In this document: in pieces, positions 32,635 to 63,259 of the stretch
Numbering within the stretch: the stretch's first letter is position 1
Layout of the letters: every line of letters begins with the position of its first letter
NCBI GenBank assembly: GCA_905182555.1
Contig: CAJJBX010000003.1
Location: forward strand, 124,001-188,000
Direction of reading: 5' to 3'
Source of the DNA: an uncultured Ilumatobacter sp.
GTDB taxonomy: Bacteria; Actinomycetota; Acidimicrobiia; Acidimicrobiales; Ilumatobacteraceae
DNA: 64,000 bases
Program-made: the position numbers and the translations under genes
Notes under the pieces: model-generated
What the model was told of the DNA's origin: nothing
The model's database searches: none
Seen by the model: only the letters and a program-made list of their open reading frames with translations

Positions 32635-32654
32635 GATCATACATTATGCATGAT
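32635..32654 (-). promoter_or_regulatory. Island operator 1 with embedded -10 element (ALDH operon / MFS)
   Basis: Plus-strand GATCATACATTATGCATGAT. On the minus strand it contains TATGAT (32641-32636), six bases before the ALDH ATG. It lies in the 64-base gap between the ALDH operon and the divergent MFS gene, so a bound protein could control both. It matches the shared core KATCATAYATNATG exactly. Confidence 0.75.
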
Positions 32655-32693
32655 TGTGGGCGGGGGTTGTGGAACACCGGATAACTTCCAACC

Positions 32694-33911
32694 ATGGACG
32701 ATCGTGCGCCAAACGTTGCAACGACGACAGCGATTTTGCGACGCCTTGCGATGCCGGTATACGTACCGGTCGTTGCGGGCAACCTCGGCTTGACGATGCT
32801 TGTCCCGGTCTTGCCGCTCTACCTCACCGACTCCGGACTTTCGCTTCGCCTCGCCTCGATAGTTCTCGCCACACTCGGTTTAGGCGCATCGTTCGGCGGG
32901 CTCCCAACTGGCGCGTTGATGGGCAGATTTGGTGAGCGAAAAGTGCTCATCGGCGCCATTGCCATTTTCGCATCAGCGACCGCAACACTTGGCACCACGA
33001 CTGTGGCGTTGGTTTTGGCGGCTCTACGCCTCACGAGCGGCGCTGCAAACGGCGCCATCCGTCTCTCACGTCAGACGTATATCACTCGCCGGATCGACGT
33101 GGGTGTCCGCGGCCGGGCGATGGCAATGATCGGCGGATCGATGAGAATATCGCTCTTCATTGGACCCTTGATCGGCGGCATCCTCGTCGACCTTGTCGGA
33201 TACACCGCGACATTCGCGATCGCCGGCGTGCTGACGGCAACCGGCATGCTTCCCCCACTCTTGGTACCCGATCACATCCCCCTCCTCGCCGGTCGAGAGC
33301 CCAAACGCCGCATTGGAATACTGCGCGCCATCTCCACCCACCGCCGATTGCTCGCAAAGGTTGGAATCATCCCGATGTTGGTTATGACCGTACGCGAGGG
33401 CCGACTGGTCGTGATCCCCTTAATCGGCGACGACTTGGGCCTGTCATCGTCTGCAGTTGGGGCCGTTGTCACCGTTGGCACAGCGGCAGATCTGATGTTG
33501 TTTCCCGTTGCGGGGTGGGTCATGGATCGCTTTGGACGTCTTGCTGCGATGATTCCAGCGTTCGGCTTGATCGCCTGTGGCCTGGTGGCGCTCGGGATGG
33601 CGAATGGGACACCTCTGGTCGTCGCGGCCGGCGCGATTATCGGTATCGGAAACGGTCTGTGTTCCGGCACGATGTTGACTCTCGGAAGCGACGTCGCTCC
33701 ACCAGAAGCGCCCGGTCAATTCCTTGCCGGCTTGGCAACGATGCAGGAAGGCGGTCGCGTCGCTGGCCCGCTGCTCGTTGGCGCAATGGGAGCCGCCTAC
33801 GGCCTGGGGGCTGCAGCGTACGCGTTGGCGCTGGTACTGGTTGTTGCGATTGTCTGGCTGGTTCTTATCGTTGGCGAAACCGGCCGGCAGCGTGTCGACA
33901 TCGTTGGGTGA
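32694..33911 (+). CDS. MFS transporter
   Basis: 405-residue major facilitator with 12 hydrophobic segments in two halves. The cytoplasmic loop between helices 2 and 3 has GALMGRFGERKVLIG, and the equivalent in the second half is GWVMDRFGRLAAM. Substrate cannot be told; divergent placement from the ALDH operon across a shared operator suggests uptake or efflux of the compound degraded by the island. The ATG is at 32694. Confidence 0.9.
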   Translation: MDDRAPNVATTTAILRRLAMPVYVPVVAGNLGLTMLVPVLPLYLTDSGLSLRLASIVLATLGLGASFGGLPTGALMGRFGERKVLIGAIAIFASATATLGTTTVALVLAALRLTSGAANGAIRLSRQTYITRRIDVGVRGRAMAMIGGSMRISLFIGPLIGGILVDLVGYTATFAIAGVLTATGMLPPLLVPDHIPLLAGREPKRRIGILRAISTHRRLLAKVGIIPMLVMTVREGRLVVIPLIGDDLGLSSSAVGAVVTVGTAADLMLFPVAGWVMDRFGRLAAMIPAFGLIACGLVALGMANGTPLVVAAGAIIGIGNGLCSGTMLTLGSDVAPPEAPGQFLAGLATMQEGGRVAGPLLVGAMGAAYGLGAAAYALALVLVVAIVWLVLIVGETGRQRVDIVG

Positions 33912-33946
33912 ACGCACCGTCTGGTTTTAGGTTGACGGGTGGTGCT

Positions 33947-35617
33947 TTAGGAAGTGACTGCGAGGGGTGCAAGCGCGTCGATGTCGGTGACGACATCAAT
34001 GACCGTTGGACGCCCCGATGAAAAGCCCCGCTCGAGGGCGCCCGCCAGGTCGCCTGGCTTTTCGACACGTATGCCGAGCGCCCCGATTTGCGTGGCGATT
34101 GCGGCAAAATTGACCTCGGTGAACTTCCAAATTTCCCGCGCTCCCTGCTCGGTCTGTGTGCCGCCATAAGCACGATCGAACCCTCGCTTCGATTGGTTCC
34201 CGCCGGAGTTGTTGTTGACGACAATGACAGCGCAGATGTTCCATCTGACCGCTGTTTCGATTTCTGCGATGTGGTACCAAAAGCCGGAGTCACCTGTAAA
34301 GCACACAACCGGTCGATCCGGCGCGCCACATTTCGCGCCGAGCGCTGCTGGGAACGCCCACCCGAGGTGGCCGGCTGAGCGGAGATAGCTCTGACCTGCT
34401 CGGTTGTCGAATATTCCACCCATCCACATCCCAGCGTGGCCGGTATCGACGACGACGATTCCATTGTCGGGCGTGTTCTTGGAGAGTTCAACGCAGAGAC
34501 GTTCGGGCCGGATCGGCACCTGATCGGAGCCGAATTCGTTGGCGTGTTCGCTCCGCCATTCGCGCACGGCGTCGGCGGCTCGCTCTGTCCAAGATGACGA
34601 CGCGCGCCGTGCACCGGCGAGCGTGAGCATCGCGTTGAGGACTGAACGGGCGTCGCCTTGGATGCCGACGAGCGGTGTGTAGTTGCGTCCGATTGATTCA
34701 GCGTCGATGTCGATGTGGATGGTGTCGGTATCGAACCGCGGGACTTGCCAGAAGTGGGTGGTCATTCCGCCCGTCTCCGTGCCGATGAAACACACCAGAT
34801 CGGCTTCGGCGACGACGCGGTTGGCGGAGGCTCGCGAGTATGTCCCGACCACCCCGACTGCGAGCGGGTGATCAGCCGGGATCATGTCCTTGCCGTTGAG
34901 TGACGTGGACACCGGGATTTGAAGATGCTCAGCGAGGGCGACGAGGGCAGGTCCGGCCTGGGACCATTTGACGCCGCCTCCGGCGACGAGAACCGGACGT
35001 TCTGCTGTGCGAAGAAGTTCGATTGCAGCACGAAGTTTTTCATCGTCGGCGGGCATCAATCGATGGGGTGGAATCGTTGCGAACGCGGAGTCCACCATTG
35101 GTTCGACCTGTGTTTCTTCGGCATCAACCTGGCCTTCGTTTCCGCGGAACTGGAGATGGACCGGCCCGGGGGAGCCTGTTGTTGCCACACGAAATGCCTG
35201 GCGGACCATGTCGGGAATTCGATCGACGTCGTCGACTGTCGCGTTGAACTTCGTCACCGATTCAAACGCCGGAACATCGTCAACCTCTTGGTACACCTTG
35301 CGAAACTTTGTGCTTGGATCGCGCCCACCGGTGAATGCGAGAACCGGTGAGTGAGCGAGGTGCGCGTCGCGGAGCCCAGCGGCGAGATTCAGCGCTCCAA
35401 TCACCTGAGCCATACACACCCCGGGTCGCTGCGCGGCGCGCGCATAGCCGTCTGCCATGTAGGCCGCGGATTTCTCACTGTGTGCTCGAATGCGTTTGAT
35501 CTGTGTCTGGTACTCGAGCTCGACCATCGTGCGCCGGAGTACCGCCGGTACCTGGAATATGTGGGTGACTCCGTAGCCGTCGAGCATGCGGGCAAGGACT
35601 GACGCGCCAGTTGTCAT
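33947..35617 (-). CDS. Thiamine-pyrophosphate-dependent enzyme, acetolactate synthase/lyase family
   Basis: 556 residues with the three TPP-enzyme domains: an N-terminal PYR domain with the catalytic Glu in RAHSEKSAAYMADGYAR, a central domain (VLVAGGGVKWSQAG), and the C-terminal PP domain whose Mg/TPP motif runs from TGDSGFW to VVNNNSGG. The family includes acetolactate synthase, oxalyl-CoA decarboxylase and 2-hydroxyacyl-CoA lyase; its place behind an acyl-CoA dehydrogenase and MaoC pair favours a C-C lyase of an acyl-CoA or 2-oxo acid. The ATG at 35617 overlaps the MaoC stop by ATGA. Confidence 0.9.
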   Translation of the reverse strand: MTTGASVLARMLDGYGVTHIFQVPAVLRRTMVELEYQTQIKRIRAHSEKSAAYMADGYARAAQRPGVCMAQVIGALNLAAGLRDAHLAHSPVLAFTGGRDPSTKFRKVYQEVDDVPAFESVTKFNATVDDVDRIPDMVRQAFRVATTGSPGPVHLQFRGNEGQVDAEETQVEPMVDSAFATIPPHRLMPADDEKLRAAIELLRTAERPVLVAGGGVKWSQAGPALVALAEHLQIPVSTSLNGKDMIPADHPLAVGVVGTYSRASANRVVAEADLVCFIGTETGGMTTHFWQVPRFDTDTIHIDIDAESIGRNYTPLVGIQGDARSVLNAMLTLAGARRASSSWTERAADAVREWRSEHANEFGSDQVPIRPERLCVELSKNTPDNGIVVVDTGHAGMWMGGIFDNRAGQSYLRSAGHLGWAFPAALGAKCGAPDRPVVCFTGDSGFWYHIAEIETAVRWNICAVIVVNNNSGGNQSKRGFDRAYGGTQTEQGAREIWKFTEVNFAAIATQIGALGIRVEKPGDLAGALERGFSSGRPTVIDVVTDIDALAPLAVTS

Positions 35618-36060
35618 GGCTGCTCCGATCGTGTGGCTGATGTCGTCGCGCCCGGAATCTTGAACCGGGCTGCACCACTGGTCGTGACCGTGCCGTCGTC
35701 CTTCTTGACCCACAGTTCGGCGTCGAACAGCCCTGCGACATCGTCAATCGCTTCGATTGTTCCTCCGCACGTCAAGGTGTCGCCGGCGTAGGCGGGGCTG
35801 GAATGTCGATACTTGACGGACATGAGAGACGCTTCATATCCAAGCCACCACTGCACCGACTGGATCATGTAGGTGCCCTGTAACGGGCCATGTACGAGGA
35901 GTCCTGGGTGTCCGTCGTGGTCAGTCGTGAAAGGCAGGTCGTAGTGGATCCGGTGAAGCAGCCACGCAGCCGCACTGAAGCCGAAAAGGTCTACAGGGTC
36001 CGGAGTGCGTACGAGCTCCGGAATATGGGCCCCCGTCGCCAAGACGTGGATGCTGCTCAT
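35614..36060 (-). CDS. MaoC-type dehydratase, C-terminal half protein
   Basis: 148-residue hot-dog fold protein. AAAWLLHRIHYDLPFTTDHDGHPGLLVHGPL contains the hydratase Asp/His pattern of the MaoC family. With the preceding gene it forms a two-protein MaoC hydratase like HadAB/HadBC or the mesaconyl-CoA hydratase arrangement. Both its ends overlap neighbours by ATGA, so the four genes 37711 to 33947 are one translationally coupled operon. Confidence 0.88.
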   Translation of the reverse strand: MSSIHVLATGAHIPELVRTPDPVDLFGFSAAAWLLHRIHYDLPFTTDHDGHPGLLVHGPLQGTYMIQSVQWWLGYEASLMSVKYRHSSPAYAGDTLTCGGTIEAIDDVAGLFDAELWVKKDDGTVTTSGAARFKIPGATTSATRSEQP

Positions 36061-36569
36061 TGGTAAATCCTTGTGAATCGTTCGTTCATCACCATCTCGC
36101 TGAGCTGGTTGGCGAAGACAAACTCGGTGGTGACGAAGATGAGGGCGCCCGAACGTCCGGACTTTTCGTATAGGTCGACAATTCGCTTGTTGAGAGTGAT
36201 TTTGTCGCCTGCGTGAATCAGGGCGCCCATCTCGAGCCGCGTCTCGCCGGCCATTGCGCGATTGGTTGGAAGCGGCGGCACGTCAGCACTCGAGGAGCCA
36301 TCAGGTTCGAGGTCTGAGCGAGCGATGAGATGAGCGGCCTGCATGCGGATCGTGTAAGGGAAGTATGCGGGTGCGAGCACGTCGGGGTGGCCTGCGCGCT
36401 TGGCTGCCTCAACGTCGTAGTACACGGGATTGGTCTCGCCCACAGCGCGTGCGTAGCGGGCAATGTCTGTGCGGCTCACCGTTGTTTCGTGTTGCTCGAA
36501 CGGCTCAGTTGCCCATTGACGCGCTTGTTCGGTGATGACGTTTCCTGTCGTGTTCTGCTCGTCGGGCAT
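36057..36569 (-). CDS. MaoC-type dehydratase, N-terminal (FAS1-like) half protein
   Basis: 170-residue hot-dog protein with the FAS1-like dehydratase pattern: DIARYARAVGETNPVYYDVEAAKRAGHPDVLAPAYFP and AGETRLEMGALIHAGD. Such subunits shape the acyl-CoA site while the partner (35614-36060) supplies catalytic residues. The start ATG overlaps the acyl-CoA dehydrogenase stop as TAATG, and its end overlaps the next gene by ATGA. Confidence 0.88.
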   Translation of the reverse strand: MPDEQNTTGNVITEQARQWATEPFEQHETTVSRTDIARYARAVGETNPVYYDVEAAKRAGHPDVLAPAYFPYTIRMQAAHLIARSDLEPDGSSSADVPPLPTNRAMAGETRLEMGALIHAGDKITLNKRIVDLYEKSGRSGALIFVTTEFVFANQLSEMVMNERFTRIYQ

Positions 36570-37711
36570 TAGAGCCCCATTGTCCGAGCGATGATATTGC
36601 GCTGGACGTCGGACGTTCCGGCACCGATCACTCCGAGGCGCGACTCCCGGTAGTGCCGTTGGAGGTCGTACTCCATTGTGTAGCCGTAACCACCGAGGAC
36701 CTGCAGGCCGTCATCCGCCACTTCCTTGTAGGCCTCACAGGCGTACAGCTTGAGGATCGCCGCATCGCGCACAGTGGCTTCGTCACGGTCCAGGAGCGCT
36801 GCATATCGATACACGAGCGCTTCGGAGATCTCTGTCTTCATTTGCATCTCGGCGAGGCGGTGACTCACGGCTTGGAACTTTGAAATTGGCTGATCAAACT
36901 GTGAGCGCTGTTGCGCGTATTCGATTGAGTCTGCAAGCGCTGCTTTTGAGGCGCCGGTTCGAGCTGCTGACAGGCACAAGCGCTCGTAGCGGAGATACAC
37001 GGCGTTGTCGTTCCAGCCGTTGTGTAACGTCCCGAGCATCCGCGACTTCGAGACGCGTACGTCATCGAAGAACACATGCGCGGTACCAAGCGGCCAATGT
37101 CCGAGAGTTTCCATTGCGGTGTACGTGACGCCGGGAGCGTCGGTGTCAACGACGAACAAGGTGATCCCGTGATGCTTCTTCTCGCCAGTCGCGGTGCGGC
37201 ACGCGACGACGTCGAGATCGCTTGCCTTGAACCCGGATGTGAAGACTTTCTGGCCGTTGAGGATGAAGTCGTCGCCGTCTTCGGTTGCCGTCAGGCTGAT
37301 CGCGGCGGCGTCAGATCCGGCCTCCGGCTCGGTGAGCGAGAAGCACACCGTTGTCGTGCCGTCGGCAATCTTTGGCAGTACCGCGCGTTTGAGATCGTCT
37401 TGGCCGTCGCGCCCGATCGCGAGGCCGCCCCACGTGACTGCGCGGAACACCCAGAAGGCCAAGTCGAGGAACGACCGGCCAAGCTCCTCGAGCAGGATGG
37501 CGACTTCGACAGCGCCGCCACCGCTCCCGCCGTGCTCCTCAGCAATGTTGATGCCGAGCCAGCCCATTTTGCCCAGTTTGTCGTACACCTCGCGCGGCGG
37601 TCGGCGTTCGCGATCGCATTCGCGTACGTATTCGCGGGTGATCTCGCGAGCACAGAAGTCCCGAACAGCATCACGAAACATTATTTGTTCCGGGGTGAAT
37701 TCAACAAGCAC
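36569..37711 (-). CDS. Acyl-CoA dehydrogenase
   Basis: About 380 residues with the ACAD fold: N-terminal helices (EFTPEQIMFRDAVRDFCAREI), the FAD/substrate loop CFSLTEPEAGSDAA, the middle beta domain, and the C-terminal QVLGGYGYTMEYDLQRHYRESRL region with YRESR. The start at GTG 37711 is preceded by GAGAGGAA at a normal distance; longer frames to 37918 lack family sequence. It feeds a 2-enoyl-CoA to the MaoC pair encoded just downstream. The gap to the divergent cyclase gene (37712-37823) has no match to the island operator. Confidence 0.92.
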   Translation of the reverse strand: MLVEFTPEQIMFRDAVRDFCAREITREYVRECDRERRPPREVYDKLGKMGWLGINIAEEHGGSGGGAVEVAILLEELGRSFLDLAFWVFRAVTWGGLAIGRDGQDDLKRAVLPKIADGTTTVCFSLTEPEAGSDAAAISLTATEDGDDFILNGQKVFTSGFKASDLDVVACRTATGEKKHHGITLFVVDTDAPGVTYTAMETLGHWPLGTAHVFFDDVRVSKSRMLGTLHNGWNDNAVYLRYERLCLSAARTGASKAALADSIEYAQQRSQFDQPISKFQAVSHRLAEMQMKTEISEALVYRYAALLDRDEATVRDAAILKLYACEAYKEVADDGLQVLGGYGYTMEYDLQRHYRESRLGVIGAGTSDVQRNIIARTMGL

Positions 37712-37823
37712 GACTGGTTCCTCTCGGTTGACATTGGTGATTGCACGAGCATAGACTCGTCTTGTCTCACGCGCCACCGTCTTGAAATATGAGACGCCGC
37801 GCCTTCCTTGAAAGTGTCCTGCC

Positions 37824-38792
37824 ATGGCGACTCCGAACATCGACACCGTGCGATCGTTGGCTGAAAAAGTGTCGAACTGGGGTCGTTTTGGGCCCGACGA
37901 TGAGCGCGGCACCCTCAACCTTCTGACACCTCAGCACGTTGTGGCGGCATCGCAACTTGTCAGATCAGGGCGCACGATTTCGATGGCGTTGCCATTCGAT
38001 GATGCCGGTCCACAGACCGGGGGGCTCGGACGATTCAATCCGATCCACCTCATGATTCGAGACGGTGCTGACGCAATCGCCGGTACCGCCATCCGCGATT
38101 TTTACGGTGGCGTTGACAAGCACTTTCGAGGCACCGACGACATCATCATCATGCCGCTGCAGTCAGGAACACAGTGGGACGCTCTCGGCCACGTCGTGTT
38201 CGAAGACGTCATTTACAACGGCTACTCCGCCGACCAGGTCTCGAGCAAAGGAGCAATGAAGGGCGCTGTGACACAAGCGTGCAACTCGATGGTCGGCCGC
38301 GGGGTGCTCCTCGACGTGGCACGGGCGAACGGTGTCGAATGGCTCGAACAGGGGTACGTGATCAACGCTAACGATCTCGACCGGGCCGCCGAAATGGCCG
38401 GCGTCAAGGTCGGCCGTGGTGATCACGTTTTTGTCCGCACCGGCGCAATTGCCCAGGCCCGAGCCCGCGACGACTGGGGCGACTACGCCGGCGGCCCTGC
38501 CGCTGGGCTGGGTCTTGGCAGTGTTGAGTGGATCGCCGATCGCCAGATTGTGGCAATGGCCACCGACACCTGGGGATTCGAAGTGCGACCAAACGAAACG
38601 CCCGATGTCGCGCAGCCGCTCCATTTAATCCTGATCGCACACATGGGTCTTTGGGTTGGAGAGATCTTTGACCTCGAACCAATCGCTGACGACTGCGCCG
38701 CAGATGGGGTCTATGAGTTTATGTTCTGCGGACCGCCGTTGCCGTTCACGCGCGCTGTTGGATCGCCCCTCAATCCAATGGCGATCAAGTAG
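37824..38792 (+). CDS. Cyclase family protein (kynurenine formamidase/isatin hydrolase fold)
   Basis: 322-residue PF04199-type hydrolase. The metal region reads LQSGTQWDALGHV, aligning with the HxGTHxDxxxH motif but with Gln at both first His positions; the second block GVLLDVARANGVEWL is typical of the long actinobacterial members. The family opens amide or lactam rings such as N-formylkynurenine and isatin. The substituted ligands make metal use uncertain. It starts at ATG 37824 and is followed by the CitE-type lyase. Confidence 0.85.
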   Translation: MATPNIDTVRSLAEKVSNWGRFGPDDERGTLNLLTPQHVVAASQLVRSGRTISMALPFDDAGPQTGGLGRFNPIHLMIRDGADAIAGTAIRDFYGGVDKHFRGTDDIIIMPLQSGTQWDALGHVVFEDVIYNGYSADQVSSKGAMKGAVTQACNSMVGRGVLLDVARANGVEWLEQGYVINANDLDRAAEMAGVKVGRGDHVFVRTGAIAQARARDDWGDYAGGPAAGLGLGSVEWIADRQIVAMATDTWGFEVRPNETPDVAQPLHLILIAHMGLWVGEIFDLEPIADDCAADGVYEFMFCGPPLPFTRAVGSPLNPMAIK

Positions 38793-38823
38793 CGAGCAAC
38801 TCCGGAGCGAAAGAGCCATTCCC

Positions 38824-39303
38824 GTGCCAATGCAGCCAATGCGGTCAATGATCTTCACACCGGGGCACCGCCATGACCTTGTCGCAAAGGCAATCGCGTG
38901 TGGCACTGATGCTGTCATCGTGGACCTTGAAGATGCTGTCGCGCTGGAAGAGAAGCCAGCCGCGCGAGCGGGACTCAAGAATCTGCCGAGGGCCAACATC
39001 CCGATGTACGTTCGAACCAACGCCATCGAAACCGGGCTCTTGTGGGACGACGTTGTTGCGGCCGGTCAGGCGAACATCGACGGACTCGTCATCCCGAAGG
39101 CAGAGTCGGCAGATGTTCTGCGCGAGATCGACGGAGCGTTGCGGGCCCTGGAAATGGCGAACGGGCGCGAGGTCGGCTCAATCACGGTGATCCCACTCAT
39201 CGAGAGTGGCCTCGGCGTTCGGGAAACGTTCAACATGATGTCGATCGGTGGCCGCTTTGCCGCAGCGCATCGGTGGCGGCGAGCAAGGCGACCTCGTTGC
39301 TGA
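38824..39303 (+). CDS. CitE/HpcH-type acyl-CoA lyase, N-terminal part, frameshifted
   Basis: N-terminal half of a TIM-barrel lyase of the CitE/malyl-CoA lyase family: MRSMIFTPGHRHDLVAKA, AVIVDLEDAVALEEKPAAR, VIPKAESADVL and VIPLIESGLGV. The frame then breaks at about 39245-39265 and ends FAAAHRWRRARRPRC; the rest of the gene is one frame over. Removing one base near 39250 restores GRFAALPQRIGGGEQGDL. Starts at GTG 38824 or ATG 38830 are both possible. It would cleave a 3-hydroxyacyl-CoA or citramalyl/malyl-CoA type ester. Confidence 0.85.
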   Translation: MPMQPMRSMIFTPGHRHDLVAKAIACGTDAVIVDLEDAVALEEKPAARAGLKNLPRANIPMYVRTNAIETGLLWDDVVAAGQANIDGLVIPKAESADVLREIDGALRALEMANGREVGSITVIPLIESGLGVRETFNMMSIGGRFAAAHRWRRARRPRC

Positions 39304-39733
39304 CCTCGGCGTCGAGTGGACACCCGAGGGAACCGGCCTGATGCATGCTCGGGCGCAGGTCCTGATGGACTCTCGTGCGGCTGGTTGCCAGCACCCAATG
39401 GAGGCCGTCTTCATGGACTTCAGGAACCTTGATGCCTTGCGGGTCGAATGTGAGCTCGCCCGGACACTGGGTTATGTCGGCAAAGTGGCGATTCATCCAG
39501 CACAGATTCCCGTTATCCATGAGGTCTTCGCGCCTTCAGATGATGACGTTGCGCATCATCGCCGGATCATCGAAGAGTTCGATGCTGCCCTAGCTCGGGG
39601 AAGTGCATCGATTCAGGTCGACGGAAAGATGGTCGACTACGCGGTCGCCCGCGTGGCACGCGGCGTTCTGGCCCGGGCCGACCTCGCCGTCAGTGCCGCG
39701 GCCCGTGCTGCCAACTCCTCAACACAACTCTGA
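39248..39733 (+). CDS. CitE/HpcH-type acyl-CoA lyase, C-terminal part, frameshifted
   Basis: Continuation of the lyase in the next frame: IGGGEQGDLVADLGVEWT, GLMHARAQVLMDSRAAGC, HPMEAVFMDFRNLDAL and the family's GYVGKVAIHPAQIPVIHEVF. GGGEQGDL holds the acidic metal-binding residue of the barrel. A GTG at 39248 could open this frame but gives no family N-terminus, so the two halves were one gene. It ends 27 bases before the first Gfo/Idh gene, which has its own strong ribosome site. Confidence 0.85.
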   Translation: MAALPQRIGGGEQGDLVADLGVEWTPEGTGLMHARAQVLMDSRAAGCQHPMEAVFMDFRNLDALRVECELARTLGYVGKVAIHPAQIPVIHEVFAPSDDDVAHHRRIIEEFDAALARGSASIQVDGKMVDYAVARVARGVLARADLAVSAAARAANSSTQL

Positions 39734-39760
39734 AGTACTCGTTCACATCAAGGGGAAGTC

Positions 39761-40858
39761 ATGTCACGAAGCAGATACATCAATAATGGGGTCGGCATTG
39801 CAGTGATCGGCTGCGGTGGGATCGGCACGCTTCGAGCTCAGATCTGCCACCGCCACCCATCGGTCAAGTTCCTCGGCGTCTGCGACGTCATTGAAGAGCG
39901 CGCATCGACGCTCGCTGCTGCGTGTGACGCAGATGACTGGACGGCTGACGCAATGGAACTCGTCAACCGAGATGAGGTTGATTGTGTGATTGTCGCATCG
40001 ACCGAAGATGCCCATTTCGCTCCGGCGATGGCAGCTATCCAAGCTGGCAAGCATGTCCTGATCGAAAAGCCGCTGACGATCGAACCAGATGAGGCCAAGC
40101 AGCTCCTTGTTGCGGCCGAAGAATACGGCGTGTTTATCTACACCGGATTTACTCAGCGTTTCCGCCGACGGTTCCTCTCTATTAAAGAGTCCATCGAAAG
40201 GGGCCACATCGGTGACATCACCAGTGTGAAGGCGTCGATCTACCTCACGCAGGCTGTGGCGCGAGCGGTGATCTCCCGCGCTCCGACGACGACGCCGTCC
40301 ATCAACACCATGACCTACCTGGTCGATCTTTTGGTCTGGTTTGCCGACGGCAAGAAGCCGATATCAGCCTATGCATCAGGGGCAAAAGGCATGTTTTACG
40401 AGGAGTTCGGGGCGCTTGATTCCACGTGGACGGTGCTGAACTTTGACGGGGGCATGGTGGCAACCCTCGGCGCCAGTTGGGAAGTCCCAGTGTTTTGGCC
40501 AGCGAACAACGCATCGATGGAGTTCGAGGTCTTTGGCCGTGAGGGCGCTGTCAGCGTGAAGGATGACCATCGCGACATGTTGATTGCCTCGAATAAGCCG
40601 ATGCCAGGGCCGTATACGCCCGACGTCGATATGCACGTGGCCCTCTTCGGCAGCAATATGCCCGGCGATTGGTCCCTTGGTGAACATTTCGGCGCGATGC
40701 AAGAAGAGACGCACGCATTCATCAACAGCGTCGGCCAGCGTCGGCAAGACACGATTCTGGCGACAGGTCGCGATGGATTCGACGTGTTGGCCATTTCCCG
40801 CGCAATCGACCGGTCGGCCAACACTGGCGAGGTCGTGCCGATCCCGTGGGCGACCTGA
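39761..40858 (+). CDS. Gfo/Idh/MocA family oxidoreductase 1
   Basis: 365 residues. Rossmann motif IGCGGIGTLR near residues 13-22, the family EKPLTIEPDEA segment, then a catalytic barrel domain with GYTQRFRRRFL-type sequence (here GFTQRFRRRFLS). These enzymes oxidise sugar, inositol or related polyol carbons with NAD(P). AAGGGGAAG stands five bases before the ATG at 39761. The stop overlaps the CaiB start (TGATG). It is close to the Gfo/Idh at 54693 in motif order and C-terminal sequence, so they are probably paralogues. Confidence 0.9.
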   Translation: MSRSRYINNGVGIAVIGCGGIGTLRAQICHRHPSVKFLGVCDVIEERASTLAAACDADDWTADAMELVNRDEVDCVIVASTEDAHFAPAMAAIQAGKHVLIEKPLTIEPDEAKQLLVAAEEYGVFIYTGFTQRFRRRFLSIKESIERGHIGDITSVKASIYLTQAVARAVISRAPTTTPSINTMTYLVDLLVWFADGKKPISAYASGAKGMFYEEFGALDSTWTVLNFDGGMVATLGASWEVPVFWPANNASMEFEVFGREGAVSVKDDHRDMLIASNKPMPGPYTPDVDMHVALFGSNMPGDWSLGEHFGAMQEETHAFINSVGQRRQDTILATGRDGFDVLAISRAIDRSANTGEVVPIPWAT

Positions 40859-42069
40859 TGCCCGGTGCGAACGTGGCAGCCATGCTCGAGGGCGTGACTA
40901 TTCTCGAACTTGGAGGGGTGATTGCTGGAAATTTCGGTGGGATCATCCTGGCTGATCTCGGGGCCGATGTCATCAAAATCGAACCGAAGACGGGCGATAC
41001 TGCGCGCAACCCCCAGATTGCGCCATACCAGGACCACAGCGCGATCCACCTCTTCATGAATCGCGGCAAGAAGAGTGTCGTGCTCGATCTCAAGAGCGAA
41101 GAAGGTTTAGAGATTCTGCAGCGCCTCGTCGAGCAGGCCGACGTCGTCGTGGACAACTTTCGGCCCGGGGTCCTGACGCGACTGGGAATCGACCATGCAG
41201 CGCTCAAAAAGATCAATCCGAAGATCATTACCGTCAGCATTACCGGATTCGGCGAGACCGGCCCACAGAAAGACAAAGCGGCATTTGATCTCGTCATCCA
41301 GGCGTACAGCGGTCACATGTCGATCACCGGCGAGCCGGACGGTCCACCCGCTCGAGCCGGTGTGCCGCTCGCCGACATGTCTGGCGGAATCTACGGGTGC
41401 ATCTCGATTCTTGCGGCGCTGGTCGGTCGTGAACTCCACGGGGGAGGTGCTCATGTCGACGTCGCGATGCTCGACTCGATGGTGCATCTGCTCTCGTACG
41501 ACGCTCTCGACTATCTGACCGCTGGCAATCAGGCCAGCCGCCATGGATCTGCCCACGCTCATATGGTGCCGTGGCAGGCTTTCCCGGCATCGGACGGTCA
41601 CGTGGTGGTTGCTGCGCGCGACGAGAAGTTCTGGCTCAATCTGTGCGATGCATTGGGGCGCGACGATTTGAAATCCGATCCGCGAACCGAGAACAACGCC
41701 GCCCGTTTGGTGAACCGCGAGTGGCTCGTCCCACAACTGGAGGAGGAGTTCAGCCGACGTTCCCAAGCCGAATGGGTGTCGATCCTGGACGAGTTTGACA
41801 TCCCGTCGGCTCCGGTCAACACGCTTGAGACATTGTTCGACGATCCACACATGGAGGCGCGCGGCATGATCCAGTCGTACGAGCATCCGACCCTCGGCGC
41901 TATTCGATATCAACCCAGTCCAATGAAGGTTGCTGACTGGGATTTCCCGAAACGACATGCGCCGATGCTCGGTGAACACACGCTCGAAGTACTCACCGAT
42001 CGTCTCGACTACACCGCTGATCGGGTTCGAGAGTTGGCGGTCGCGGGTGTCGTCGGCACCTGGAAGTAA
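40858..42069 (+). CDS. CaiB/BaiF type III CoA-transferase 1
   Basis: 403 residues with the interlocked-ring CoA-transferase pattern: VTILELGGVIAGNFGGIILADLGADVIKIE, NRGKKSVVLDLKSEEG, VDNFRPGVLTRLGI, and the putative catalytic Asp in LADMSGGIYGCISILAAL. It moves CoA between carboxylic acids, activating a substrate for the acyl-CoA genes of the island. It is coupled to the upstream Gfo/Idh gene by TGATG. A second member of the family is encoded at 49594. Confidence 0.92.
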   Translation: MPGANVAAMLEGVTILELGGVIAGNFGGIILADLGADVIKIEPKTGDTARNPQIAPYQDHSAIHLFMNRGKKSVVLDLKSEEGLEILQRLVEQADVVVDNFRPGVLTRLGIDHAALKKINPKIITVSITGFGETGPQKDKAAFDLVIQAYSGHMSITGEPDGPPARAGVPLADMSGGIYGCISILAALVGRELHGGGAHVDVAMLDSMVHLLSYDALDYLTAGNQASRHGSAHAHMVPWQAFPASDGHVVVAARDEKFWLNLCDALGRDDLKSDPRTENNAARLVNREWLVPQLEEEFSRRSQAEWVSILDEFDIPSAPVNTLETLFDDPHMEARGMIQSYEHPTLGAIRYQPSPMKVADWDFPKRHAPMLGEHTLEVLTDRLDYTADRVRELAVAGVVGTWK

Positions 42070-42313: not shown

Positions 42314-42331
42314 GGTTCCCCTCGTAAGACG

Positions 42332-42351
42332 ATGTTGCATCATATATGATC
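42332..42351 (+). promoter_or_regulatory. Island operator 2 with embedded -10 element (amidase-hydantoinase operon)
   Basis: The reverse complement begins GATCATATATGATG, an exact match to the shared core. On the plus strand TATGAT at 42345-42350 is seven bases before the amidase ATG at 42358, again a leaderless layout. It also faces the amidohydrolase remnant on the other strand. Confidence 0.75.
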
Positions 42352-42357
42352 TAAGCA

Positions 42358-43560
42358 ATGAAGGGAATGACAGACTTCGATTGTTTTACCCTTCAGAGCG
42401 CTGCACGAAACCCCACTGGTTCGGGCCTACTCGATGGCATTCGCATCGCGGTCAAGGATCTCATTGCGATCGGAGGGCACACGTCGTCGTTTGGGACCGC
42501 CCGCTGGCGTGAGACGCACGATCCCGCCTCGGCGGATGCGCCGATTGTGGCCAAGCTCCGGGCAGCGGGAGGCGAGGTGGTCGGTACGACCAAGATGGAT
42601 CAACTTGCATATTCTCTGATTGGCAACGTTGGCGAAGGCGACCCACCAATCAACGTTTTTGACACGGACTCCTACTGCGGAGGTTCATCGTCGGGATCTG
42701 CCTCGGCGGTGGCTGCTGATGCTGCGGACATCGGCGTTGGTACCGACACGGCAGGTTCGATCCGTGTTCCTGCCGCCGCGTGTGGTTTGTTCGGTTTTCG
42801 ACCAACACACGGCCGGGTTGAAACAGTGGGCGTTGTGCCGCTGGCGCCCTCGTTTGACGTTGTCGGGTTCCTCACTCATGATCCGGCGGCGCTGCGCAAT
42901 GTGATGACGGTCGTCGGAACTGGTCTGACGGCCCGGAAGGGGCCGGCTCGGATTCTGTTCCCGTCCGACGTCTGGGCGATGCAAGATCCGTTTGACTCAG
43001 CTGCAGCGCTGGCTGCGAGTGAACGAATTCGGTACGAGCTCGATGCTGAAATCATTTACGAACCGCTCCGTCAATTTTTCGACCCGGCAGCTGGAGATCT
43101 CCTCGCTCGACTGCAAGGTCGCGAAATCTGGGCGCAGCATGAGCACTGGGTTACGGACAACGCGAACGTGCTCGCAGACGACGTCCAACTCCGCCTGCGC
43201 GGCTGCGCGTCCCTTGCCGCAGATTCGCTTGAGGTGCAAAGGGTCGATCGCGATACACATCGTCGATACGTGGACGAATTGGTAACGACAATCCCGACCG
43301 GAACGGTTGCAGTCGTGCCTGTTCGACCACAACGTGGACCGCTACGCGCATCGACGAACGCCGAATTGTTCGCCTTCCGCCGGGCGTCATTCTGCCTGAC
43401 AGCTCCGAGCACACTTGCCGGTTTGCCGCAGCTCGTCGTTCCGGTGCTTTACAATTCACGCCCTTCGCCAATTGGCCTCGTCGGGGCTCGACACTTCGAC
43501 GAGGCTCTGATCGAACTGGCGACCACCTTGTCGTCAGGAAACACGGAGGTTCAGCTGTGA
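42358..43560 (+). CDS. Amidase signature family hydrolase
   Basis: 400 residues with the Ser-cisSer-Lys triad of amidase-signature enzymes: Lys in IAVKDLIA, cis-Ser in CGGSSSGSAS and nucleophile Ser in DTAGSIRVPA. The protein is at the short end for the family. There is no Shine-Dalgarno; the ATG follows a -10 hexamer by seven bases. The stop overlaps the hydantoinase start by ATGA/GTGA-type coupling (43557-43560). With the hydantoinase it could open a cyclic imide or ureide and cleave the resulting amide. Confidence 0.92.
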   Translation: MKGMTDFDCFTLQSAARNPTGSGLLDGIRIAVKDLIAIGGHTSSFGTARWRETHDPASADAPIVAKLRAAGGEVVGTTKMDQLAYSLIGNVGEGDPPINVFDTDSYCGGSSSGSASAVAADAADIGVGTDTAGSIRVPAAACGLFGFRPTHGRVETVGVVPLAPSFDVVGFLTHDPAALRNVMTVVGTGLTARKGPARILFPSDVWAMQDPFDSAAALAASERIRYELDAEIIYEPLRQFFDPAAGDLLARLQGREIWAQHEHWVTDNANVLADDVQLRLRGCASLAADSLEVQRVDRDTHRRYVDELVTTIPTGTVAVVPVRPQRGPLRASTNAELFAFRRASFCLTAPSTLAGLPQLVVPVLYNSRPSPIGLVGARHFDEALIELATTLSSGNTEVQL

Positions 43561-46890: not shown

Positions 46891-46910
46891 TATCATATAT
46901 AATGCATGAC
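46891..46910 (-). promoter_or_regulatory. Island operator 3 with embedded -10 element (TauD-IclR operon)
   Basis: Plus-strand TATCATATATAATGCATGAC, an exact match to the shared core. On the minus strand TATGAT (46897-46892) is six bases before the TauD-like ATG. Because the IclR gene is in this unit, the site would make the regulator autoregulated. Confidence 0.78.
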
Positions 46911-47980: not shown

Positions 47981-47984
47981 CAGG

Positions 47985-48497: not shown

Positions 48498-48499
48498 GT

Positions 48500-51725: not shown

Positions 51726-51745
51726 ATCCTACATAATATACGATA
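51726..51745. promoter_or_regulatory. Island operator 4 (crotonase operon)
   Basis: The reverse complement begins TATCGTATATTATG, one mismatch from the shared core. It lies in the 71-base gap between the 3-hydroxyisobutyrate dehydrogenase-like gene and the crotonase start. Here the crotonase has a leader of about 35 bases with a Shine-Dalgarno, unlike the leaderless units. Confidence 0.62.
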
Positions 51746-53603: not shown

Positions 53604-53623
53604 TATCATATATTATGCACAAT
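53604..53623. promoter_or_regulatory. Island operator 5 (divergent lactonase and amidohydrolase units)
   Basis: Plus-strand TATCATATATTATGCACAAT, an exact match to the shared core. It lies in the 148-base gap between the divergent lactonase-like (53531, minus) and amidohydrolase (53680, plus) genes. TATGAT on the minus strand (53610-53605) is a possible -10 for the leftward unit, giving a leader of about 66 bases with a Shine-Dalgarno. Confidence 0.75.
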
Positions 53624-55832: not shown

Positions 55833-55833
55833 C

Positions 55834-57213: not shown

Positions 57214-59946
57214 CTAGACCGTGGTCTGCGTGGTCTGGATCTGAGCGTGCGCCGCGGCGAGTCGTGCGACCGGAACGCGGTAGGCCGAGCAACTCACGTA
57301 GTCGAGGCCCATCTCGTGACAGAGCGAGATCGACGCGGGGTCACCGCCGTGTTCACCACACACCCCTGACTCGATGCCTGGTTTTGCACGGCGAGCACCG
57401 GCGAGTGCGAGCCGCATCAGCTGCCCGACTCCGTCATCGTCGATTGATGCGAAGGGGTTTTGGTCAAGTAGCCCGTCGTTCAGATAGTCGAGCAGGAAGG
57501 CGGATTCAGCGTCGTCACGACTGATCGCGAACGTGGTTTGAGTCAGATCGTTGGTGCCGAACGACACGAAGTCAGCAAATTCGGCAATCTGCTCGCAGGT
57601 GAGCGCAGCTCGCGGGACTTCGATCATCGTGCCGATCTGTAGGGGGACGTCGACGTGGGACTCGGCCATCACCTCAGCGGCCACCTCCTCGATGATCAAG
57701 CGCTGCTTTGCAAGTTCGTTGTGGTGGCTGACGAGCGGCACCATGATTTCCGGCTTTGGTTTACCCCCGGCTCGAATGACGCCGACCGCTGCTTCGGTCA
57801 CAGCCCGCACCTGCATTCGGGTGAGGTCAGGGAGTTGGAGACCGAGTCGAACGCCGCGCAACCCGAGCATCGGGTTCGATTCGCTGAGTGCCTCGACCCG
57901 AGCCAGCATCGCACTCGTCTCGTGAAGTTCTGTAATAAGTGATTCAACAGCCTGGAGATCACCTGCCCTGACGAGGCGAAGTTGAAGATCGGTGATTGTT
58001 CGGTGGAGATCGGTCCAACTCGGAAGGAACTCGTGCAACGGGGGATCCAGCAGACGGATGATCACTGGCAAGCCGTCCATTGCTTCGAAGAGACCGGTGA
58101 AGTCCTCACGTTGCATCGGCAAGAGCAAGTCGATGGCTTCGCGCTGCTCGGCGAGCGTCGGTGCGGTGATCATTTGTTGGACGATTGGAAGCCGTTCCGA
58201 CCCAAAGAACATGTGCTCCGTGCGGCACAGTCCGATCCCTTCAGCGCCGTGCCGGCGTGCACGAGCCGCCTCGATCGGATCGTCGGCGTTGGCGCGAACC
58301 CCGAGCGTCCGTATGTCGTCGGCCCAGTCGAGCAATGTGGCGAGTGAATCGTTGTCAAGATCAGGATCGACCGTGGGGACCTGGCCCGCATAGATCCGGC
58401 CAGTAGTCCCATCGAGGGAGAGCCAGTCGCCCTCAGCAATTGTGATGTTGCGAATAGTGACGCATCGATTAGCGAGGTCTATATCGAGGTCGGATGCACC
58501 GGTCACAGCCGGTTTGCCAAACTGGCGGGCGACGAGTGCGGCGTGGCTTGTACGACCCCCGCTTGAGGTGAGAATGCCGACGGCAGCGAGCATCCCATGC
58601 ACATCGTCAGGTTTGGTTTCTTGGCGAACGAGCACAACCGGGCGCCCCTCAGCCGCCCAGCGTTGCGCCAGGTCGGGATCGAACGCGACCACTCCGACTG
58701 CGGCGCCTGGTGACACGTTGAGGCCGTACGCGAGTACAGGTCGGCGAGTGATCTCGTCGCCCGAGAACTGAGGGTGCAGGAAGAAATCGATCTGCTCAGG
58801 CGTGATTCGGCGGACTGCTTCCTGGCGCGAGATCCGACCCTCGTTCGCAAGGTCGACCGCAATACGCACAGCTGCCTGAGCGGTTCGCTTTCCGTCTCTC
58901 GTTTGCAGCAGCCAGAGGCGACCGTTCTCGATCGTGAACTCGATGTCTTGCATGTCGCCGTAGTGCGCCTCGAGTTGCTTTGCTGTGGCGAGAAGGTCTC
59001 GGGCGCATTCGGGTGCGTCGTCAGCGAGCTCGGAGATTGGTTTAGTCGGACGGTTGCCGGCAACGACGTCTTCTCCTTGAGCGTTCATCAAGTAGTCGCC
59101 CTCGAGGTGGGGTTCACCAGTGGTTCCGTCGCGCGACATCGCAACGCCTGTGCCCGAGGTCGGGCCCGTGTTCCCGAAGACCATGGCGACCACGTTGACT
59201 GCTGTCCCAAGATCGTGGGGGATCCCCGAGGCGTCGCGGTAGTCGCGCGCTCGTCGGCTGTGCCAGCTCTTGAACACGGCCTCGATGGACAATTGCAACT
59301 GATCCATCGGATCGGAGGGAAACGGTTCGGATCCGTTTGTTGCAATGATCTTCTTGAACTCGTCGGTAATTTCTCGGAGTACATCGCCATCGAGGTTGCT
59401 GTCCGAAGTGACGCCGTGGGCTCGGCGTGCCGACGTCAGCACGTGATCGAACCGTTCTGCGTCGACACCGAGCACGATTGCCCCGAACATCTGGAGGAGC
59501 CGTCGGTACGAATCGAAGACGAACCGTGCGTCGCCGGTTTTGTCGACCATTGCCTCAGCGACGACGTCGTTCATCCCGACGTTGAGCACGGTGTCCATCA
59601 TTCCGGGCATTGAGAACTTTGCGCCAGAGCGCACAGCGACGAGGAGCGGATTGTCAGCACCACCGAAAGTTCGACCAGTCTGCGACATAACGTTTTTGAG
59701 TGCGCTGCCGGCCTGGTCCCACAGCCCGGCAGGCATTTGGTTGCTCTGCGAAGCGAACTCGTTACATGCTTTCGTGGTGATCGTAAACCCGGGCGGCACC
59801 GGGATGCCGAGTGCCGCCATGTCGGCAAGGTTGGCGCCCTTTCCTCCGAGGAGACCCCGAACGGCGTCCCAGTCGCCGCCGACGGCGTGTTTTGCATCAT
59901 CGAGATCTTGGAAATCGAACACCCAGCGTTGTGATTCTTTGCTCAC
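57214..59946 (-). CDS. ppdK: Pyruvate, phosphate dikinase
   Basis: About 910 residues, normal for PPDK, which interconverts pyruvate, ATP and Pi with PEP, AMP and PPi. Domains: N-terminal ATP-grasp (GGKGANLADMAALGIPVPPGFTI), the central swivelling phosphohistidine domain (GGRTSHAALVARQFGKPAV), and the PEP/pyruvate barrel (GTNDLTQTTFAISRDDAE, and GVCGEHGGDPASI with the catalytic Cys). AAGGAG stands seven bases before the GTG at 59946; an ATG at 59961 overlapping the upstream stop is the alternative. Cotranscription with Gfo/Idh 4 suggests it feeds island products into gluconeogenesis. Confidence 0.95.
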   Translation of the reverse strand: MSKESQRWVFDFQDLDDAKHAVGGDWDAVRGLLGGKGANLADMAALGIPVPPGFTITTKACNEFASQSNQMPAGLWDQAGSALKNVMSQTGRTFGGADNPLLVAVRSGAKFSMPGMMDTVLNVGMNDVVAEAMVDKTGDARFVFDSYRRLLQMFGAIVLGVDAERFDHVLTSARRAHGVTSDSNLDGDVLREITDEFKKIIATNGSEPFPSDPMDQLQLSIEAVFKSWHSRRARDYRDASGIPHDLGTAVNVVAMVFGNTGPTSGTGVAMSRDGTTGEPHLEGDYLMNAQGEDVVAGNRPTKPISELADDAPECARDLLATAKQLEAHYGDMQDIEFTIENGRLWLLQTRDGKRTAQAAVRIAVDLANEGRISRQEAVRRITPEQIDFFLHPQFSGDEITRRPVLAYGLNVSPGAAVGVVAFDPDLAQRWAAEGRPVVLVRQETKPDDVHGMLAAVGILTSSGGRTSHAALVARQFGKPAVTGASDLDIDLANRCVTIRNITIAEGDWLSLDGTTGRIYAGQVPTVDPDLDNDSLATLLDWADDIRTLGVRANADDPIEAARARRHGAEGIGLCRTEHMFFGSERLPIVQQMITAPTLAEQREAIDLLLPMQREDFTGLFEAMDGLPVIIRLLDPPLHEFLPSWTDLHRTITDLQLRLVRAGDLQAVESLITELHETSAMLARVEALSESNPMLGLRGVRLGLQLPDLTRMQVRAVTEAAVGVIRAGGKPKPEIMVPLVSHHNELAKQRLIIEEVAAEVMAESHVDVPLQIGTMIEVPRAALTCEQIAEFADFVSFGTNDLTQTTFAISRDDAESAFLLDYLNDGLLDQNPFASIDDDGVGQLMRLALAGARRAKPGIESGVCGEHGGDPASISLCHEMGLDYVSCSAYRVPVARLAAAHAQIQTTQTTV

Positions 59947-59957
59947 TTGATGCTCCT

Positions 59958-60953
59958 TCATTCCCGCGCCCGTATTTCGTCGAGGTTGACAACCTGGCCG
60001 GTCGCTGCGCTCTCGACGATGCCTTCCAGCACGGCGATGACTTCGAGCGCCTCCGGACCTCCGGTTTCTGGCCGGGTTCTGTTGCGTACGTTTTGTGCGA
60101 ACTCGGCGAGTTCGTCTGCGACGGTGTCGATTTCGTCGATGGGCTGAGTGATCCAGCCCTTTTCGCCAGTTGCCTGAAAAAGAAATTGGGCTCCGTCCAT
60201 CTCGTTTGCAGCAGCGGCCTTGATGCCCCAGACTGCTGTTCGACAGATGTCGGGAATCACCAGTGACGTGCTGAGTACTGCGAGTGGGCCACTCTTGAAT
60301 TCGAGGTTTGCCGTAGTGACGTCATCGAGGTCGCTGCGGCCCAGGACCTGTCGGCTGAAGGCGAATACGCGCGACGGTCGCCCGAGGAGATACATGAGGT
60401 TGTCAGCCATGTGCACGCCCAGCCCAGTCATGCCGCCGGCGGGGCTTTCCGCTGGGTTGCCTCGCCAGCCACCTCGCGGCGTCAGCTCTTTAGGGAGCGA
60501 CATATTGGCCTCGGCGTAGACGATGGTGCCGAGGCCACCACTGTCGATCAGGTGCTTCAAACGTCGGGTCCCCGGTTGTCGGCGACGGTTGTGTCCGACT
60601 TGGAGTACCACTCCGGCAGCGTCGGTGGCAGCCATCGCACGTTTTCCACTAGCGACATCAAGTGTGAAGGGCTTGTCACAGAACACGTGCTTTCCCGCTT
60701 GGGCTGCCCGGATCACCAAATCGCTGTGGGTGGAGTGAGGGCTTGCGACCAGGACTGCCTCGACGTCTGGATCCAACAGCATCTCGTCGACGGAAGACGC
60801 AGATGAGCAGGTGTATGCCTTGGCAAAGTCGTCTCGCGTTGCGACGGTTCGAGCGAAGCAGCTCACGATGTCGACCCCGGCCCCTCCGGTCTTCTGGGCG
60901 AGGACTCCACCCCACCAGCCCAGTCCAATGAGTCCTACCCGGAGCGGTTCCAT
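59958..60953 (-). CDS. Gfo/Idh/MocA family oxidoreductase 4
   Basis: 331 residues, GLIGLGWWGGVLAQK at the N-terminus and FCDKPFTLDVASGKRAM for the family EKP segment, with Asp in place of Glu. The C-terminal domain diverges from Gfo/Idh 1-3. The ATG at 60953 lies six bases after a TATGAT hexamer inside operator 6, another leaderless layout. The stop is within 12 bases of the PPDK start. Confidence 0.9.
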   Translation of the reverse strand: MEPLRVGLIGLGWWGGVLAQKTGGAGVDIVSCFARTVATRDDFAKAYTCSSASSVDEMLLDPDVEAVLVASPHSTHSDLVIRAAQAGKHVFCDKPFTLDVASGKRAMAATDAAGVVLQVGHNRRRQPGTRRLKHLIDSGGLGTIVYAEANMSLPKELTPRGGWRGNPAESPAGGMTGLGVHMADNLMYLLGRPSRVFAFSRQVLGRSDLDDVTTANLEFKSGPLAVLSTSLVIPDICRTAVWGIKAAAANEMDGAQFLFQATGEKGWITQPIDEIDTVADELAEFAQNVRNRTRPETGGPEALEVIAVLEGIVESAATGQVVNLDEIRARE

Positions 60954-60958
60954 CGCAT

Positions 60959-60978
60959 GATCATACATAATGTCAGAT
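60959..60978 (-). promoter_or_regulatory. Island operator 6 with embedded -10 element (Gfo/Idh 4-PPDK unit)
   Basis: Plus-strand GATCATACATAATGTCAGAT, an exact match to the shared core. On the minus strand TATGAT (60965-60960) is six bases before the ATG at 60953. The site partly overlaps the 3' end of the transporter gene whose stop is at 60973. Confidence 0.75.
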
Positions 60979-61944: not shown

Positions 61945-62018
61945 GAAGTCGCTCCGGTGCTTGTCATAGAGGCGTCAGAGCCACTGCCGTCGTGCAGGGC
62001 CTCTCGTCAAGCGACCTA

Positions 62019-62038
62019 GTCATATATCATGCATGATA
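62019..62038. promoter_or_regulatory. Island operator 7 (EamA transporter / FMN dehydrogenase)
   Basis: The reverse complement begins TATCATGCATGATA, the most diverged copy (three differences from the core) but strongly palindromic (ATCATGCATGAT). It lies in the 123-base gap between the divergent EamA and FMN-dependent dehydrogenase genes. Confidence 0.55.
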
Positions 62039-62067
62039 TGTTCAATTTTCGGCTTCGGGGCTGACGA

Positions 62068-63171
62068 ATGGCCAACGATTCGCTCGGCCGCGAACCAACG
62101 ACATCGGTATCGAGCGGTGCTGTGACATCGTTTGTGTCGGTTGAGCAGTTCGTCGAGCGGGCTCGGGGCACTCTGGATCATTCCCACTTTCTTTGGGGGG
62201 ACGCGGCGGCGGGTAGGGAGGTCACAGCAGACCGCAACACGCTTGCCCTGAACCGGCTCGCGCTGATCTCGCAGGTGCTTGTCGACGTCGGTGAAGTCGA
62301 CGTCAGCAGCAGCTTTGTCGGCGTACCGCTTCGATTGCCGATCGTCATGGCTCCGGTCGGCGCCGCCTCGCTGTATCACCCGGAGGGCGCCGTCCTCGCA
62401 GCAGCAGCAGCAGCAACAGCTGGAACTTCGAGCACGTGCGCAATGCTTGCGTCGGACGCCTGGGAAGACGTGGCAGCAACAGCACCCGGCCGCCACTTCT
62501 TCCAACTGTATGTCGGGGGCGACCGCGGCTGGCTCGCTGCGGTTATCGCGCGCGTCGAAGCTGCAGGGTTTGCCGCAATCATCGTGTCGGCTGATTCGCC
62601 GGTAGTTGGGCGTCGCGATCGGGTCCTCCTCGACGGGTTCACGTGGAGTCAGGCGTTGCACGCTCATCCGGAAAATCTCGCCGGACTGGGGTACGACTCT
62701 GAGTTCCGCAAACGCACCACCTGGGACGACATGGAGTGGATCTGTGCAGCGACCTCGTTACCGGTTGTTCTCAAGGGCGTCCTTTCAACAAATGATGCCC
62801 GGTCAGGTGTCGACCGCGGATGTGCAGGTATCTATGTGTCGAATCATGGTGGTCGAACTCTCGACCACAACATCTCGACCATCGAGGTTCTCGAAGAGAT
62901 CGTTGAAACGGTTGGTGGCTCAGCCGACGTCATGATCGACGGCGGATTCACAGGTGGCTCCGATGTCTGCAAGGCGTTGGCACTCGGAGCGAAGGCGGTA
63001 GCGCTCGGACGCCTTCAATGTTGGGCGCTTGCTGCGGGAGGCCAGTTTGGGGTGCAGCGTCTCCTCGAAATTTTGTGCGCCGAGTTGGAGACGTCAATGG
63101 CCAACCTCGGGTGTGATCGCATCGCGAATCTTGGCCCCGAGCGAACCCGGTGGTCGATTCCGACGGTGTGA
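62068..63171 (+). CDS. FMN-dependent alpha-hydroxy acid dehydrogenase
   Basis: 367-residue TIM-barrel flavoenzyme of the lactate/glycolate/mandelate oxidase family. LRLPIVMAPVGAASLYHPEGA, FFQLYVGGDRGW, the FMN phosphate region VSNHGGRTLDH with the active-site His, and VMIDGGFTGGSDVCKALALGAKAVALGR are all present. The catalytic Lys is in PVVLKGVLS. It oxidises a 2-hydroxyacid to a 2-oxoacid. The ATG is at 62068, divergent from the EamA gene across operator 7. Confidence 0.9.
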   Translation: MANDSLGREPTTSVSSGAVTSFVSVEQFVERARGTLDHSHFLWGDAAAGREVTADRNTLALNRLALISQVLVDVGEVDVSSSFVGVPLRLPIVMAPVGAASLYHPEGAVLAAAAAATAGTSSTCAMLASDAWEDVAATAPGRHFFQLYVGGDRGWLAAVIARVEAAGFAAIIVSADSPVVGRRDRVLLDGFTWSQALHAHPENLAGLGYDSEFRKRTTWDDMEWICAATSLPVVLKGVLSTNDARSGVDRGCAGIYVSNHGGRTLDHNISTIEVLEEIVETVGGSADVMIDGGFTGGSDVCKALALGAKAVALGRLQCWALAAGGQFGVQRLLEILCAELETSMANLGCDRIANLGPERTRWSIPTV

Positions 63172-63239
63172 CTGTTCGCGATGCGCCGTTGCGCCCCTGT
63201 ACGACCCAGCCCATCTTTCGATCCTGGGCCCCGTGCAAG

Positions 63240-63259
63240 ATCTGACATAAGATATGATC
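63240..63259 (+). promoter_or_regulatory. Island operator 8 (2OG oxygenase)
   Basis: The reverse complement begins GATCATATCTTATG, one mismatch from the shared core. TATGAT at 63253-63258 on the plus strand is a likely -10, giving a leader of about 33 bases before the ATG at 63298. Confidence 0.65.

Follow-up and report, generated by a model that had tools for sequence, protein, structure and literature searches.

Among operators of the FadR subfamily of GntR regulators, the common consensus is TKGT/ACMA in the survey by Suvorova et al. 2015 (PMC4494728), which names BioR and NanR among the exceptions with other motifs. In Atu1419, a VanR-group regulator from Agrobacterium fabrum, an asparagine and three histidines hold a zinc ion, according to the description of that protein (PMC7797058). 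The catabolic island described here contains a 19-bp palindrome, ATCATRYATNATRYATGAT, which, as judged from sequence comparison, is very probably the operator of P0001, a GntR-family regulator of the FCD type. Across the genomes compared, the sites and P0001 occur together, and the sites precede orthologous operons in several families.

Operator sites in the island

The window, that is, the whole 64-kb stretch of DNA that was analysed, corresponds to C3:124001–188000. The palindrome, whose centre is N, fits all eight sites in the window, and a search at up to three mismatches gave 15 strand-hits, compared with a mean of 0.14 and a largest count of 2 in shuffles. Judged by the start codons in the sequence itself, each site lies 6–73 bp upstream of at least one gene. 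The sites, given without strand, are as follows.

32636–32654, operator 1: no mismatches to the palindrome; between ALDH (minus strand) and MFS (plus strand), 6 bp and 39 bp from their respective start codons.
42332–42350, operator 2: two mismatches; upstream of amidase and amidohydrolase genes (42358–44915, plus strand), 7 bp from the amidase ATG.
46892–46910, operator 3: one mismatch; upstream of the TauD-type oxygenase and IclR genes (45069–46885, minus strand), 6 bp from the TauD ATG.
51726–51744, operator 4: two mismatches; heads ECH, CaiB2, AH2a, CMD and PpiC (46970–51686, minus strand), 39 bp from the ECH start codon.
53605–53623, operator 5: two mismatches; between AH2b–HIBDH (minus strand) and AH2c–Gfo2–Gfo3 (plus strand), 73 bp from the AH2b start codon and 56 bp from that of AH2c.
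60960–60978, operator 6: two mismatches; upstream of Gfo4–PPDK (57214–60953, minus strand), 6 bp from the Gfo4 ATG and overlapping the final codons of EamA.
62019–62037, operator 7: one mismatch; between EamA (minus strand) and FMN dehydrogenase (plus strand), 30 bp from the FMN dehydrogenase ATG.
63240–63258, operator 8: three mismatches; upstream of an IPNS-like 2OG-Fe(II) oxygenase gene, assigned by Pfam and starting at 63298 (plus strand), 39 bp from its ATG.

An earlier note on this DNA had reported eight copies of one site, each at the head of a transcription unit; all eight exist, and each precedes at least one gene. All eight copies match its 14-base core, five exactly and two with one mismatch, as it had counted, but the copy at 62018, to which it had given three mismatches, has two. 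It had noticed no copy before 28 kb; the top matrix score in window positions 1–28000 is 9.8 bits, at 17112.

Scanning the draft genome (2.56 Mb, 72.7% complete) at up to three mismatches identified 14 places, 13 of which, including two that overlap, lie within 50 kb at C3:156636–206182. The single place outside this island is a three-mismatch match in C2, and the reversed palindrome has no place in the whole draft genome at the same threshold. The sites are real and form a regulon. The proposal in the earlier note of one operator serving one regulon is well supported, although the set is larger than the eight copies it had listed and some island operons stand without a site. As the window stops at C3:188000, the set extends 18 kb beyond it, with eight of the 13 sites inside and five past its end.

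C3:190460, site upstream of an FAA hydrolase gene.
C3:196508 overlapping 196515, doubled site downstream of the GntR gene.
C3:197290, site between the GntR gene and an M24 peptidase gene.
C3:206164, site upstream of an ABC-transporter binding protein gene.

Matrix scores of the 13 C3 sites range from 15.4 to 32.4 bits, nine of the 13 having trained the matrix. The doubled operator (G000:C3:196508–196533) lies 17 bp beyond the 3′ end of the GntR coding region, 245 bp separate it from a preceding alcohol dehydrogenase gene, and no gene nearby is an obvious target for it.

A set of 81 nonredundant sites gives the consensus ATCnTRYATNATRYAnGAT, which is partly circular as these were picked with the matrix; it is without GT...AC and lacks the TKGT/ACMA boxes usual in the FadR subfamily. 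A second site stands at a 7-bp offset in 23 of the 81, compared with 6.2 expected.

The starts of ALDH, amidase, TauD and Gfo4 (window 32629, 42358, 46885 and 60953) share the arrangement TATGAT-N6/7-ATG, in which an operator arm occupies the place of a leaderless −10 box; this is not general in relatives. As a general account of the operator arm, the −10 box was rejected: of 41 one-sided sites, 26 have TA at the start of the arm nearer the gene and 21 at the start of the far arm (p 0.37). An ATG lies 5–7 bp from a site 13 times, against 7.8 expected from the mean rate, and the −10 reading is not established. No known RNA family was found in the window at the gathering threshold.

Gene content of the island

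Pfam scans covered selected ORFs of 28–64 kb together with the remaining contig. The enzymes assigned are aldehyde dehydrogenase, amidase, amidohydrolases, TauD, enoyl-CoA hydratase, CoA transferases, Gfo/Idh proteins, a PPDK-like enzyme, FMN dehydrogenase, 2OG-Fe(II) oxygenase, FAA hydrolase, an HMGL/DmpG-type aldolase with acetaldehyde dehydrogenase, and a split D-lactate dehydrogenase. They are accompanied by MFS, TRAP and ABC transporter parts and by an IclR regulator. One part of the island stands apart from the operators:

33947–42069, no strand given, divergent TPP-enzyme/MaoC/ACAD and Cyclase/HpcH/Gfo1/CaiB1 units, without an operator.

The best matrix score between 33001 and 42200 is 5.8 bits, so both units are without a site; the module that they form is conserved in several island carriers. 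HpcH, an Ldh_2-type dehydrogenase and D-lactate dehydrogenase appear to be broken across two frames or by a stop (window 38873–39733, L015:7760–9250 and L015:17847–19522, respectively), reflecting either real decay or assembly error.

A GntR/FCD protein as the candidate regulator

The best candidate for the regulator is encoded in the same island:

G000:C3:196551–197240, minus strand, P0001, a GntR/FCD regulator of 229 aa, 8.5 kb beyond the end of the window.

Searching 13 genomes for PF00392 placed the GntR domain within the island, at C3:196995–197168; the frame antisense to this gene is longer than the GntR frame itself. P0001 is composed of a GntR winged helix-turn-helix (PF00392, 50.9 bits, cut-off 27) and an FCD effector domain (PF07729, 89.5 bits, cut-off 24.3), in which a predicted metal site of one asparagine and three histidines (N140, H144, H189 and H211) is invariant in 18 P0001-like sequences. 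It is the sole such protein in its own genome at E≤1e-25 among the 7 of 12 candidates that were scored, and its gene sits among the genome's sites. It speaks against the assignment that the site closest to the GntR promoter is the weakest, at 15.4 bits.

In the mechanism that we propose, a P0001 dimer would repress at least ten operons, binding at their starts or immediately beside them, and overlapping sites offset by 7 bp would take a second dimer. The position of the sites, at or just before start codons, would suit repression by blocking RNA polymerase. A pathway acid bound by the metal site in the FCD domain would then release the protein from DNA; such an acid is a likely inducer, as the domain keeps the asparagine and three histidines. 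These data do not give the direction of control, and P0001 might bind the sites as an activator rather than a repressor, but this is unlikely, since a protein bound 6–73 bp before a start codon would more probably block transcription.

Co-occurrence of the operator and the regulator

Among 221 genomes of the same family, the source genome alone reaches three sites or more when up to two mismatches are allowed. In a class-wide sample (Acidimicrobiia, 395 genomes), nine genomes from six genera and three families reach this count (the source genome, G283, G379, G485, G528, G301, G312, G442 and G441), and all nine encode P0001 or a close homologue. With homologues accepted at E≤3e-50, a limit that includes G286 at 2.7e-50, three or more such sites are present in 9 of 22 genomes with a homologue as opposed to 0 of 373 others, in association tests that ignore shared ancestry. 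At up to two mismatches, seven of the 22 are without a site, and in four of these (G270, G332, G382 and G534) the matrix finds a site beside the GntR gene.

An alignment of 18 homologues was then used, with the protein as the only criterion, to fetch 78 loci from genomes in GTDB, some of them near-copies or on a common contig and therefore not all independent. The matrix, made from the nine own-genome sites, matches 41 of the 78 loci, with 77 matches in all, whereas 300 palindromic column permutations of it match a mean of 0.97 loci and a maximum of 13, none reaching the real count. Against the assignment, no site was present in the nearby DNA searched for four homologues that rank among the closest to P0001: L147 (58%), L148 (55%), L165 (53%) and L149 (52%). 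The cyanobacteria Gloeocapsopsis and Leptolyngbya (L216 and L219) have an operator 108 and 153 bp, respectively, upstream of their GntR genes, the one in L219 being doubled with the 7-bp offset.

These data also bear on whether a separate, unrecognised regulator, travelling with the GntR gene and the islands, reads the site. The evidence is one of co-occurrence, the draft genome is 72.7% complete, and not every GntR homologue has a site nearby, all of which such a regulator would accommodate. We nevertheless regard it as quite improbable, because in distant phyla the site immediately precedes the GntR gene, with a match within 450 bp upstream in 13 of the 78 loci (permuted mean 0.11, maximum 3). 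Moreover, none of 20 loci of other GntR proteins drawn from the PF00392 search (81 kb, ten genomes) carries a site, compared with 9 of 20 P0001-like loci in the same matrix comparison.

The IclR protein of the island

A second regulator is encoded within the window:

45069–45959, minus strand, IclR-family regulator (PF01614 and PF09339), encoded after TauD in the operon that operator 3 heads.

This protein was the regulator favoured in the earlier note, and several observations agree with that choice. Its gene lies in mid-island, and an orthologue (49–56% identity) occurs in eight other genomes of the 395, all eight of which have sites at up to three mismatches, the reversed control giving 0 in seven of them and 4, against 5 sites, in G459. 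Three or more sites at up to two mismatches are found in 5 of 9 IclR genomes and in 4 of 386 others. The assignment is nonetheless probably wrong. G301, G312, G442 and G441, four of the nine site-rich genomes, have 3–4 sites each without an IclR orthologue, which disposes of a rule that sites occur only where one is encoded, whereas the operator tracks the GntR/FCD protein as far as the two cyanobacteria, where it stands upstream of GntR genes. When 19 genomes were searched in full, the IclR proteins of G301, G312 and G442 proved to be distant ones (24–30% identity), and G441 had none at E≤1e-10. Among IclR-negative genomes, two or more sites are present in 4 of 14 with the GntR protein and in 3 of 372 without it. 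None of the eight IclR orthologues has a match in the region examined before its gene, where the best score is 1.2 bits.

There is thus very little likelihood that the IclR protein binds the palindrome and coordinates the island; it is likely to be a target rather than a reader of the site and, being encoded in a site-headed operon, may provide a second layer of control. No match precedes the TauD orthologue in three of three relatives, so the link between IclR and a site-headed operon is local.

Sites before orthologous genes in relatives

Searches by tblastn with 56 island ORFs (one of them antisense to the GntR gene; matches kept at ≥38% identity, reaching 88%) located much of the island gene set around sites in relatives. 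Many of these loci were chosen for holding sites, so that only the position of the site relative to the genes counts. On that measure, a site precedes the orthologue of SBP in G283, G347, G379 and G459; of FAAH in G283, G379, G442, G459 and G485; of AH2c in G301, G312, G442, G543 and G347; and of ECH in G485 and G459. Homologues of Gfo4 are preceded by a site in G283, G379 and G528. DctP, which is site-less in the source genome, has one before it in G283, G379 and G459.

Loci chosen by their IclR gene were selected without regard to sites. There, with a divergent pair counted twice, promoters of the genes predicted as targets in the source genome have a match of at least 12 bits in 8 of 21 cases, compared with 5 of 92 for other island genes; raising the limit to 14 bits leaves 4 of 21 against an unchanged 5 of 92 (Fisher p 0.06), and a rank test of the two groups gives p 0.003. 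The five other genes with a site are DctP twice, SDR1 twice and HIBDH2. Sites of SBP are missed by the examined region because the SBP alignments start behind the N-terminus. In G025, from another genus of the same family, one doubled operator (L043:5879–5904) lies over an ORF for FAA hydrolase at 40% identity.

The earlier note would have given up its regulon had the motif proved as common inside genes and before unrelated genes, or unconserved in orthologous islands; neither was the case, and sites are kept before orthologues in the islands of other families. That the palindromes are mobile or structural repeats without a regulatory role, as their confinement to a probably acquired island might suggest, is scarcely credible given that the copies are degenerate, adjoin start codons and precede orthologous genes in other families.

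Origin of the island

Gfo2 has no match at E≤1e-80 in a sample of 219 other genomes of the family, with up to eight candidates scored per genome, and is 74–81% identical in other families. The simplest reading is therefore that the island probably entered the genome by horizontal transfer together with its regulator and operators; loss of the island in relatives and a join within the contig are the alternatives.

Other explanations of the distribution were considered and rejected. A poly(A) polymerase gene on the same contig (26119–27630) has the opposite pattern to Gfo2: it is 81–82% identical to those of five congeners and 53–59% identical to those of nine other-family genomes; the contig is therefore not foreign as a whole, at least that part, at 26 kb, belonging to the same genus. 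Nor are the sites common to congeners: in nine genomes of the genus there is neither a site at up to two mismatches nor a match to Gfo2 at E≤1e-80.

A broader reading is tentative, if quite possible: a large GntR/FCD subfamily, marked by a VSTTPVREA recognition helix, may read an undescribed operator and move between families as a self-contained regulon. The range of such a subfamily would take in Actinomycetota and at least two cyanobacteria; its operator would be 7-bp-periodic, with ATNATRY boxes and no GT...AC; and the regulator would move together with ten or more operator-marked operons.

Significance and comparison with known systems

These results tie an unassigned operator to a definite type of regulator, and, for Acidimicrobiia, whose genomes here are mostly metagenome assemblies, provide a regulon of at least ten operons that can be put to the test. 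They suggest that a catabolic island can spread along with its whole control system, and offer a case for how swapping the usual arginine of the GntR recognition helix could alter the operator. No paper on the site strings with GntR, or on a GntR regulon of Acidimicrobiia, was found in a literature search that had subscription journals and supplements outside its scope.

Among solved GntR/FCD proteins, 3c7j is the best sequence match of P0001 (E 1e-25), and McbR (4p9f) and TM0439 (3sxy) resemble it in having no arginine at the aligned recognition position; all three are remote relatives, likened to P0001 by protein sequence alone. In the description of Atu1419 (PMC7797058), that protein, like P0001, consists of a GntR winged helix-turn-helix and an FCD domain, and its metal site (Asn137, His141, His192 and His214) corresponds to N140, H144, H189 and H211. 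Atu1419 represses a catabolic region, as P0001 is predicted to do. Their operators differ: Atu1419 recognises a 10-bp palindrome, ATGTATACAT, and uses Arg45 to read its guanine, whereas the P0001 site is 19 bp long and without GT...AC. By alignment offsets, Thr56 of P0001 takes the position of Arg45, and the want of the GT...AC usual in the FadR subfamily is in keeping with this threonine in the recognition helix, where several relatives have arginine.

The present sites resemble FadR-subfamily operators, as given in the survey (PMC4494728), in being AT-rich palindromes and in serving divergent pairs, and the doubling at a 7-bp offset is like the extra boxes found 7–12 nt from the centre of GntR operators. 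The type of regulator is a known one, but its operator is unusual, being built as TRYA-TNA-TRYA with outer ATC/GAT arms, unlike the TKGT/ACMA of the FadR subfamily.
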